A DNA stretch of 64,000 bases from Natronorubrum tibetense GA33 (GTDB lineage Archaea; Halobacteriota; Halobacteria; Halobacteriales; Natrialbaceae). The DNA lies in contig NZ_KB913017.1 in assembly GCF_000383975.1 (NCBI RefSeq), positions 3,076,265 through 3,140,264 on the forward strand, in the 5' to 3' direction. Every line of letters begins with the position of its first letter. Positions within the stretch are counted from its first letter, which is position 1. Both the position numbers and the translations under genes were made by a program. Positions 24,514 through 28,514 of this stretch are shown one piece after another. Below the pieces are notes generated by a model. It searched no databases and had not been told where the DNA came from. It saw only the letters and a list, made by a program, of their open reading frames with translations.

Positions 24514-25203
24514 TCAGTCCCGGTGGGTTTCGGTAATTTCTCCAATAGCCTCGGAGCCGCAGTCGACGTAGCCGCCGTGGAAGCAGACGACGTGTTCGAT
24601 ATCGCGGTCAGCCAGGTCGGCCACCGACTCGAGCGCGCGGTCCATGTTCGGTGTGAACTCGGGCTTCGGGCCGTCTATCGGCCCATCCCCGTCCGCGACG
24701 AGCGCGTCACCGGCGAGCAACAGGCCATCTTCGGGGAACTGCAACGAGATGTGACCCGGAGAGTGGCCGGGGGTGTCGACGACTTCCATCGGTCCTGCGA
24801 GGGTCGGGATTCGGACGCCCCCGGTGAGCTCTAAGTCGACGGAAGCCGGCGGATACCGATCGCCGTCGCCCTTGATCGGCTCCCGTTTCCCCGTCACGTA
24901 CGGCGCTTCGTTCCGGTGGGTCGCGACGGCCGCGTCGACGTGCTCGAGCAACTCCGCGAGACCCCCGGCGTGGTCGCCGTCGTGGTGGGTCAGGAGGACA
25001 AGCCAGATATCCTCGAGTTCGTACCCCAGCGATCGGAGATGCGTTCGAACGGCGTCGACGGCCCCTTCCGGGCCAACGTCGATCAGGATCGGTCCGCGCT
25101 CGGTTTCGACGAGCGTCGGGGTGATCGGCAACGCTCGGCCGCCGTAGTCGACCGTGATCGGGAGCGCGTGAACGCCCGCCTCGCGATTTTCGTTCGTTCC
25201 CAT
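24514..25203 (-). CDS. MBL-fold metallo-hydrolase
   Basis: A 229-residue metallo-beta-lactamase-fold protein. The metal motif is LTHHDGDHAGG (HxHxDH: the first His of the pair, Asp and His; about residues 71-81), then the third-ligand His in VDTPGHSPGHISLQ, the bridging Asp in LLAGDALVADGDGP and a last His in VVCFHGGYVD. This is the glyoxalase-II-like/hydrolase branch of the superfamily. It is cytosolic. It reads away from the terpene-synthase-like gene with a 150-base gap holding that gene's promoter. The substrate is unknown. Confidence 0.92.
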   Translation of the reverse strand: MGTNENREAGVHALPITVDYGGRALPITPTLVETERGPILIDVGPEGAVDAVRTHLRSLGYELEDIWLVLLTHHDGDHAGGLAELLEHVDAAVATHRNEAPYVTGKREPIKGDGDRYPPASVDLELTGGVRIPTLAGPMEVVDTPGHSPGHISLQFPEDGLLLAGDALVADGDGPIDGPKPEFTPNMDRALESVADLADRDIEHVVCFHGGYVDCGSEAIGEITETHRD

Positions 25204-25319
25204 ACGCCAGTCGTCGACCGCCAGAACGAAATGATTGTCCGTCGGCTCCCGGTTCCCAATCCGCAGACCAACGGTCGGTGCCGGAAGTGGGTCGGTTTCA
25301 GAAGTTCGGTACTAATGAA

Positions 25320-25330
25320 AAATAATAAAT
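25320..25330 (+). promoter_or_regulatory. TATA box of the terpene-synthase-like gene
   Basis: The run aaataataaat, in an AT-rich island (25312-25352) within GC-rich DNA, is centred about 30 bases before ATG 25355. With an archaeal spacing of 25-27 bases to the transcription start, the message would begin at or just before the start codon, giving a leaderless transcript. Confidence 0.6.
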
Positions 25331-25354
25331 CTAATAGATGTAAATACTACAACA

Positions 25355-26350
25355 ATGACGAACATCGCCAGTGTTCCACGACTCGAGGTCGAGATCGACC
25401 CGTTCGCCGACGCCGCTTCCCAGACGCTCCCCGAGGTGGTTCGTCCGCTGGCAGACGCGTACGACGAGCAGATTGCGGATCGAGACCGATCGCTTTGGCG
25501 TTGGTTCTACCGGGCGACGGCCGAGTTCGGCCTCTCGTGTGTCGATACGGACCGCGTCCGACGGACTCGAAGCGCGAAGGTCCTCGCCACGATGTTCATC
25601 ACCGTCGTCGACGACGTCGCCGAACGATACGGCGACCGGGCGACGTTCGCAGAGCTGTTGAAAGTGCCCTTCGAGCATCAGGACGCCGATCCGACTCGAG
25701 CGGGCGTCGCGGGCGAGTACGTCCGATTTCAACAGGAGCTCTGGGCGGCGTTGCAAGCGCTGTACGACGACGGTCCGCGAGCGGAGGAGTTCGCGGCGCT
25801 GTTCCGGTTCGACCTCCGGCAGGCGCTTCAGTCGGTCGACTACTCCGCGCTGTTGGCCCAGCACCCCGGGCTCGCCTCCGAGCGCGAACTCTGGACGTAC
25901 GACGCGCACAACATGATGGTACTCTGTTTCGCCGATATCGATCTCGCCGCCTCGTTGTCGTTCGACGCGGCCGAACTCGCGGCGGTTCGGGAGGTCGTCA
26001 CGCGGGCACAGCGGATGGCTCGAGTCGGCAACTGGATCGCGACCTGGGAGCGCGAACTCGCCGAAGGCGACTACAGTTCGGGCGTCGTCGTCCGCGCGCT
26101 CGAGTCCGGCGTCGTCTCGATCGACGAACTGCGAGGGCTCGAGACCCGGCCGACGGGCGACGCCGTCGATCCGATCGTTACGGCGATCCGTGAGTCCGAG
26201 ATCGAGGCCTACTTCGTCGATCGCTGGCGCAGCGAGTACGACGAGGCGGTGCAGTTCGTCGGGGCGGTGGACAGTGTCGATCTTCGGACGTATCTCGAGG
26301 GGTTCGAGACGATCTTTCGGGCGCAACTGGCGAACCGCCCGTCGAACTGA
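25355..26350 (+). CDS. Putative class I terpene synthase-like protein
   Basis: A 331-residue all-helical soluble protein. Two metal-binding motifs of class I terpenoid synthases are present at the expected spacing: DDVAE at 86-90 (the aspartate-rich DDxxD/E) and NWIATWERE at 226-234 (N-x3-T-x3-E, the NSE/DTE triad), preceded by Arg 223. The total length matches bacterial monodomain sesquiterpene-type synthases (about 300-350). A trans-prenyltransferase would have a second DDxxD instead, so cyclisation of a prenyl diphosphate is the better guess. An AT-rich promoter is directly upstream. No P450, phytoene or IDI gene is next to it. The product is unknown, and the assignment rests on motifs only. 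Confidence 0.72.
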   Translation: MTNIASVPRLEVEIDPFADAASQTLPEVVRPLADAYDEQIADRDRSLWRWFYRATAEFGLSCVDTDRVRRTRSAKVLATMFITVVDDVAERYGDRATFAELLKVPFEHQDADPTRAGVAGEYVRFQQELWAALQALYDDGPRAEEFAALFRFDLRQALQSVDYSALLAQHPGLASERELWTYDAHNMMVLCFADIDLAASLSFDAAELAAVREVVTRAQRMARVGNWIATWERELAEGDYSSGVVVRALESGVVSIDELRGLETRPTGDAVDPIVTAIRESEIEAYFVDRWRSEYDEAVQFVGAVDSVDLRTYLEGFETIFRAQLANRPSN

Positions 26351-27827: not shown

Positions 27828-28514
27828 CTACAGTTGCTGGGGCGTCGTCGACTCGGAGATCGGTTCCGAGACGACGTGATCGACGAGTTTCGCCTCGATC
27901 TTCCGGAGGTGTTCGCCGACCGTCCCGCCGGCGATACCGACCTCGCTGCCGATTTCCTCGTACGTCGTCTCCCGCGGCGAGGCATAGTAGCCGAGATCGA
28001 TCGCCGTTCGAAACAGTCGGCGCTGTTGTGCAGTGAGGGTCGCGAGGAAGACGTTCTCGTCGGGTTCGAACGCCTGTTTCGTCTCGAGAACGATGTCAAC
28101 ATCGTCGGGGACGACGGCCATCGCCCGCTGGAAGGCCGGCTCCGTCGCGAGGTAGGTCACGCGCAGGTCGCCGTCGCGGACGTAGATCATCGGCGGGTCG
28201 AGGAAGACGCGAAACTCGCGGGTGATCCGGAGGAGTGCGTGGACGGTCTCGTTCGGGACGAACAGCGAGCAGAGCAGGATTCGGTCGCCGAAGGCCTCGA
28301 GCCAATAGTCGAACGGACCGAGTTCGTCCGCCACGAACGCCTCGACTCGATCGAACTCGCCGCCCAGTTCGTACAGCACCAACCCGAGTTCGTCGGTCGC
28401 GAGGCGGATCCTGTGAATCGCGACGCGTCTGACTCCCTCCCGCTGGTCGAGTCGCTTCTCGAACGGGTGAAACCACCCGTCCGTCGGAGAGAGCCGAACG
28501 TCGTAGTGCCGCAT
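27828..28514 (-). CDS. HTH-10 (Bat-like) transcriptional regulator
   Basis: A 228-residue haloarchaeal regulator of the bacterioopsin-activator type without PAS or GAF domains. The C-terminal 60 residues form the HTH-10 motif: LTAQQRRLFRTAIDLGYYASPRE, then TTYEEIGSEVGIAGGTVGEHLRKIEAKLV. The N-terminal 150 residues are the mixed alpha/beta sensing region common in this family. It lies about 70 bases upstream of the trans-sulfuration enzyme on the same strand, and may control it (inference). The ATG at 28514 is taken; the signal sensed is unknown. Confidence 0.9.
   Translation of the reverse strand: MRHYDVRLSPTDGWFHPFEKRLDQREGVRRVAIHRIRLATDELGLVLYELGGEFDRVEAFVADELGPFDYWLEAFGDRILLCSLFVPNETVHALLRITREFRVFLDPPMIYVRDGDLRVTYLATEPAFQRAMAVVPDDVDIVLETKQAFEPDENVFLATLTAQQRRLFRTAIDLGYYASPRETTYEEIGSEVGIAGGTVGEHLRKIEAKLVDHVVSEPISESTTPQQL

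Follow-up and report, generated by a model that had tools for sequence, protein, structure and literature searches.

A class I terpene synthase-like gene of a haloarchaeon belongs to a family whose members repeatedly adjoin sensor and regulator genes

THE LOCUS

The window, that is, the whole 64,000-nucleotide stretch of Natronorubrum tibetense GA33 DNA that was analyzed, carries on its forward strand a gene whose 331-residue product resembles class I terpene synthases. The gene, its motifs and its immediate surroundings are laid out as follows.

24514..25203, minus strand: metallo-beta-lactamase-fold hydrolase gene, divergent, directly upstream of the synthase gene (PF00753, 9.6e-27)
25204..25354, no strand: AT-rich divergent intergenic region, promoter region of the synthase and hydrolase genes (by composition)
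25355..26350, plus strand: class I terpene synthase-like gene, 331 aa, ATG start (PF19086 above cut-off; AlphaFold2 model; structural neighbors are class I terpene cyclases)
25610..25624, plus strand: codons of the first metal motif, DDVAE (aa 86–90), which closes predicted helix 65–91 (sequence; relatives; AlphaFold2 helix)
26021..26023, plus strand: codon of R223, a candidate diphosphate-contacting Arg located three positions ahead of the NSE Asn (133/139; Met in six Methanosarcina members)
26030..26056, plus strand: codons of the second metal motif, N226-W-I-A-T230-W-E-R-E234, of the NSE/DTE type, within predicted helix 205–236 (conservation; AlphaFold2 helix)
27828..28514, minus strand: gene for an HTH_10 (Bat-type) regulator with an HVO_0513_N domain, two genes downstream of the synthase gene and the nearest regulator (PF24278, PF04967)

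The coordinates, strand and length of the open reading frame, together with both metal motifs (D86-D87-V-A-E90 and N226...T230...E234), are those given in a preliminary description of this DNA, and the 331-residue protein indeed lacks the second DDxxD that this description had reported to be absent. The synthase gene is single-copy in the host genome, and its closest relative, a protein of Natronorubrum texcoconense, is 89% identical.

The intergenic region upstream has a GC content of 48%, as compared to 64% for the window. The divergent layout of synthase and hydrolase genes is kept in the Natrialbaceae, with little conservation of the intergenic sequence itself, and a cis-element common to the two genes was considered and set aside, as intergenic comparison shows no clear conserved box beyond the AT-richness. 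Across the family, a hydrolase gene of this type occupies position −1 in 17 loci, 16 of which are divergent members of the window's own neighbor cluster, and an HTH_10 reading frame is also found near the synthase gene in three loci of the window's clade (L082, L086 and L094). No histidine kinase gene adjoins the window synthase gene. The argument for signaling developed below thus comes from relatives and is weaker for the window locus, whose own link to signaling, comprising the divergent hydrolase and the HTH_10 regulator two genes downstream, is weak.

CONSERVED RESIDUES AND PREDICTED FOLD

In an alignment of 139 distinct relatives, the distant Methanosarcina ones included, D87, N226, T230, W231, E234 and D239 are invariant (139/139), residue 86 is Asp in 135 (Asn in three, Glu in one), and residue 90 is Glu or Asp in 138. 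Trp follows N226 in 131 of the 139, where other class I enzymes carry Asp; this position provides no metal ligand in class I enzymes. R212 and R223 are each present in 133 of the 139 and, in this alignment, both are missing from the Methanosarcina members, so the chemistry may be altered in some of the wider family. The candidate role of R223 in contacting the diphosphate is one that we presume from plant and bacterial class I enzymes. The published consensus of the second motif likewise has Asp at its second, non-ligand position (PMC7192455), and the roles of the metal motifs in class I terpene synthases, as well as the contacts that basic residues and an effector triad make with the diphosphate, have been described (PMC10563020). 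The two motifs occur at this spacing in 122 of 125 family members, in none of 412 other proteins of 250–450 aa encoded in the surrounding loci, and in nine of 2500 shuffled family members, so that chance in an acidic haloarchaeal proteome does not account for them.

The window protein matches the Pfam profile PF19086 (Terpene_syn_C_2) over aa 80–253 at 26.1 bits, a narrow margin above the curated cut-off of 23.7, and 25 of 31 haloarchaeal members match the same profile. No NCBIfam model matching the protein was found, a phmmer search of the PDB returned no significant match, and a profile-only search of the PDB placed the pimarane-type diterpene synthases Sat1646 and Stt4548 first at E values of 0.13 and 0.87, which are not significant. 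Since these PDB sequence searches were not significant, family membership rests on the Pfam match, the motifs and the fold. The AlphaFold2 model of the window protein, built from an alignment of 31 archaeal relatives, has a mean pLDDT of 92.1 and a pTM of 0.91. Foldseek matches it best to the diterpene synthase VenA (E 4.7e-6), and in VIA-align it scores Z 21.7 against bornyl diphosphate synthase (285 residues at 3.5 Å) and Z 21.1 against Sat1646 (255 residues at 2.9 Å). Terpene cyclases make up nearly all of the best 50 VIA-align matches; a solanesyl diphosphate synthase also reaches a Z of 19.4, as prenyltransferases share the fold. Both metal motifs fall at the expected places in predicted helices 65–91 and 205–236. 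A fold unlike that of terpenoid synthases, which the preliminary description had named as grounds for abandoning its assignment, is therefore not what was predicted; the model instead resembles class I terpene cyclases, with Z scores of about 20–22.

Among known systems, the bacterial PF19086 synthases share with the window protein the predicted alpha-helical fold, the DDxxD/E and N-x3-S/T-x3-E motifs, and a single domain of about 330 aa. The window protein differs from them in having NW in place of ND in its second motif and in a family signature comprising R43, W50, D196, R212 and W231; no C-terminal RY pair like that of many bacterial cyclases can be recognized in it, and the records examined give its family no annotation beyond hypothetical. 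Sat1646 (7e4n) and Stt4548 (7e4m), the top profile-level matches in the PDB, likewise have an Arg three residues before the Asn of the second motif, followed by N-x3-S-x6-GD, but are only about 13% identical to the window protein. These two enzymes act downstream of a class II cyclase; a similar position for the window enzyme was considered and set aside, as no SQHop_cyclase_N gene was found in the genome, using the N-terminal model only. The alpha domains of plant terpene synthases such as bornyl diphosphate synthase, which give the highest Z score, carry Thr in the second motif and an Arg three residues before it; they are about 10% identical to the window protein, which lacks the beta domain. 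Isoprenyl diphosphate synthases (PF00348) have the superfamily fold and the first Asp-rich motif in common with the window protein, which has N-x3-T-x3-E instead of their second DDxxD and does not match PF00348 at E ≤ 1; it was not assigned to that group. Nor was it assigned to the squalene/phytoene synthases (PF00494), as it has no match at E ≤ 1 and 17 distant relatives yielded a single sub-threshold match.

The Pfam match, motif conservation and predicted fold thus all agree with the initial assignment as class I terpene synthase-like. Given a PF19086 score above cut-off, the AlphaFold2 fold and the invariant metal ligands, the window gene very probably encodes a genuine class I terpene synthase, and we have good confidence, judging from these profiles and models, that the encoded enzyme would be catalytically competent and belongs to a widespread, unnamed archaeal clade.

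NEIGHBORS ACROSS THE FAMILY

Sensor and regulator genes adjoin members of this family far more often than expected from background. In a census of 123 loci, mostly haloarchaeal, such genes account for 79 of 242 at positions −1 and +1, whereas four to six genes away, in either direction, they account for 21 of 490. As the home-made HMMs behind these counts had been seeded from genes already found adjoining the synthase gene, this census was biased; a second count therefore took a single locus from each of 46 lineages, delimited at 60% identity, and used the whole of Pfam. The 89 adjacent proteins then included PAS (10), HATPase_c (8), HalOD1 (5), BAT (4), FilR1 (4), DUF7344 (3) and HisKA_7TM (3) matches, and none of these families was among the matches listed, the smallest of which had two members, for 138 proteins of those loci encoded at a distance of four or five genes. 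A Bat-type regulator gene lies within three genes of the synthase gene in 39 of the 123 loci, and 21 linked Bat genes stand at −1 on the opposite strand. BAT domains are not scarce in genomes of this kind, the one to which the window belongs having 28 that exceed the cut-off. In a tree, the synthase-linked Bat domains fall in several clades, mostly apart from 16 background Bats of that genome, which indicates that the association arose more than once; a single origin was rejected, as the tree forces at least three changes. The haloarchaeal loci were also searched for a 7TM domain, and none turned up; the linked kinases there are soluble PAS kinases.

A cytochrome P450 gene lies within three genes of the synthase gene in six loci (L046, L073, L074, L076, L118 and L171), and a FAD monooxygenase gene in four (L051, L056, L118 and L123). 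Such neighbors are the usual make-up of terpenoid clusters, which supports biosynthesis and marks these loci as candidate haloarchaeal terpenoid clusters. In an archaeal MAG, a gene for a FIST-domain protein shares 4 bp with the 5′ end of the synthase gene (L162:6643-8930). A further sensor type, a protoglobin chemoreceptor (MCP), is encoded directly 3′ of the synthase gene in L077:7974-9602. DUF7344 genes are found directly 5′ of it in L032–L034 and L146, with a 4-bp overlap in L032 and L033 and HalOD1 downstream. Paired synthase genes also occur, in tandem in L090:6956-9341 and about 4 kb apart in L074:5725-12218.

Methanogen and bacterial loci show tighter arrangements. In all six full-length Methanosarcina-type loci (L202, L203, L204, L206, L207 and L208), a PAS-type kinase gene of about 490–515 aa lies directly upstream of the synthase gene on the same strand, and PAS_3, HisKA_2 and HATPase_c were found in the two of these kinases that were scanned with Pfam. 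A seventh Methanosarcina-type synthase copy, in L205, is interrupted and has a PAS/HATPase reading frame upstream; the Methanohalobium synthase gene has a PAS kinase gene directly downstream. As in haloarchaea, the linked Methanosarcina kinases are soluble PAS proteins, so that any sensing in these two groups would be intracellular. The bacterial loci (L224–L231) come from eight Patescibacteria-type MAGs of 0.5–1.2 Mb, with common ancestry and short contigs. In all eight, a gene for a 7TM histidine kinase, or for its 7TM part where the contig ends, begins no more than 30 bp downstream of the synthase gene; four of the eight clusters also include a polyprenyl diphosphate synthase gene, two have a methyltransferase gene nearby, and one a gene for a receiver-domain protein. 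HisKA_7TM kinases, which contain a known sensor domain (PMC5847659), occur in 100 of 188 genomes of the bacterial class, mostly in single copy. As these kinases are so few in the class, their adjacency to the synthase gene in every bacterial locus is not due to chance, with the proviso that the eight loci share ancestry and lie on short MAG contigs. The synthase-linked 7TM domains are 33–44% identical to the reference one, whereas the remaining 7TM kinases of that class reach 14–24%, and by this measure of sequence the linked kinases form their own subfamily. An AlphaFold2 model of a linked 7TM domain (pLDDT 94.2) resembles GPCRs, with a best Z of 17.3 and 3.6 Å over 217 residues, a likeness that concerns the fold and says nothing of a ligand.

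DISTRIBUTION AND DESCENT

Of 392 genomes sampled from the order, 118 (about 30%) carry the family, which spans 42 of 95 genera and has two or three copies in several genomes. A search of the phylum located it also in methanogen-side families, including the Methanohalobium locus, and within the class to which one Patescibacteria MAG belongs, six of 188 genomes proved to have it; plasmid-borne homologues are annotated “hypothetical protein.” The view that terpene cyclases are rare in archaea thus holds for the literature searched, but not for the genomes. A literature search that covered few subscription papers found no characterized archaeal class I terpene synthase, and “terpene clusters” have been predicted in haloarchaea (PMC8600319).

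In the protein tree, the haloarchaeal members form one clade (support 97/97), the small-genome bacterial members form their own (97/99), and the Methanosarcina members lie on a long separate branch (100/100). The earlier suggestion that an isolated gene had been acquired horizontally could draw on the patchy occurrence of the family, which is missing from four of nine listed genomes of the genus, a set in which the host's own is counted, and on its relatives in methanogens and bacteria. However, the window gene is placed within the Natrialbaceae, where descent is vertical, inside the single haloarchaeal clade, its GC3 of 0.82 equals that of its neighbors (0.80–0.87), and the divergent hydrolase neighbor is kept across the Natrialbaceae. 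By tree position and GC3, recent horizontal gain by this haloarchaeon fails as an explanation, and we regard it as extremely improbable.

WHAT THE ENZYME MAY DO

If the enzyme works as its class I homologues do, DDVAE and N226/T230/E234 would bind three Mg2+ ions, which together with Arg residues, R223 being a candidate, would hold the diphosphate of a prenyl diphosphate, presumably C15–C25. This substrate would be supplied by the host's own polyprenyl synthases, and a profile search of the host genome revealed three strong polyprenyl synthetase genes. Ionization of the diphosphate would then yield a carbocation to be cyclized or quenched inside the hydrophobic helical barrel, and a terpene or terpene alcohol would be released. 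Judging from the neighbors of relatives, the product may be made under, or feed into, a dedicated sensory circuit.

Fold and metal motifs cannot tell cyclization from simple ionization and quenching, and terpene cyclases have been reported to act as aromatic prenyltransferases (PMC7414894). It is therefore conceivable that the enzyme uses a prenyl diphosphate without cyclizing it, as an acyclic prenol/olefin synthase or a small-acceptor prenyltransferase of the same fold; yet the missing second DDxxD and the failure to match either PF00348 or PF00494 count against this, and we consider it unlikely. The strong association with signaling genes could also be accounted for if the protein were a catalytically inactive relative, able to bind prenyl diphosphate and serving as a sensor protein for the adjoining regulators. 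Metal ligands that are invariant in 139 sequences, however, are less likely to have been kept by a binding-only protein, and the prenyl synthases and P450s in some clusters suggest biosynthesis, which leaves such a sensor very improbable.

If the product is indeed a terpene made by a class I synthase, two leading options exist for its role. The family's product may be an ordinary specialized metabolite, such as a pigment, membrane or antioxidant terpenoid, with the adjoining sensors and regulators only switching transcription. Bat, FilR1 and HTH_10 are transcription regulators and often divergent, as the 21 Bat genes are; P450 and FAD monooxygenase neighbors appear in some lineages; the linked Bats fall in several separate clades, as expected of recruited local regulators; and no sensor gene directly adjoins the synthase gene in the window clade. 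The regulated specialized metabolite envisaged in the preliminary description is accordingly plausible, and the regulators that adjoin relatives strengthen it; the ordinary-metabolite reading comes close to an even chance. It sits less easily with the eight bacterial loci, in which the synthase gene is paired with a codirectional 7TM receptor kinase gene of its own subfamily within 30 bp downstream, since it is signal synthase/receptor pairs that more typically show such a layout, with the receptor kinase co-transcribed with the synthase. We propose that many family members make a terpenoid tied to signaling. A more tentative option, which we hold with some doubt, is that the terpene is itself a signal molecule, and it is similarly doubtful that the family founds a terpene-based signaling module common to archaea and small-genome bacteria, in which the linked sensor perceives a lipophilic terpene signal. 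In such a module, the signal would come from the terpene synthase, which some bacteria pair with a dedicated prenyl-diphosphate synthase. The sensors would be the GPCR-fold 7TM histidine kinase in the Patescibacteria-type genomes and PAS kinases in methanogens; in haloarchaea they would be PAS/GAF Bat regulators, HalOD1 proteins or PAS kinases.

A functional analogy may be drawn with luxI/luxR-type pairs, in which a small-molecule synthase gene also adjoins a sensor or regulator gene; the proteins are unrelated, however, and the partner types here vary by lineage. The adjacency of synthase and sensor is conserved in the family, as seen in the census enrichment and in all eight bacterial and all six Methanosarcina-type loci, but not at the window locus. 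The same literature search, with its few subscription papers, found no terpene synthase–kinase module.

What is new here is the repeated occurrence of sensor and regulator genes next to the synthase gene, which hints that terpene signals may be both produced and perceived by some microbes. If active, the synthase would add a class of cyclized or modified isoprenoids to the haloarchaea; archaeal membranes are themselves made of isoprenoids. Archaeal signal molecules are little known chemically, and one compound reported from Halorubrum is still of unknown identity (PMC10223598). If the link to the sensors is functional, this family would provide a genetically testable candidate for cell–cell or intracellular signaling in archaea.
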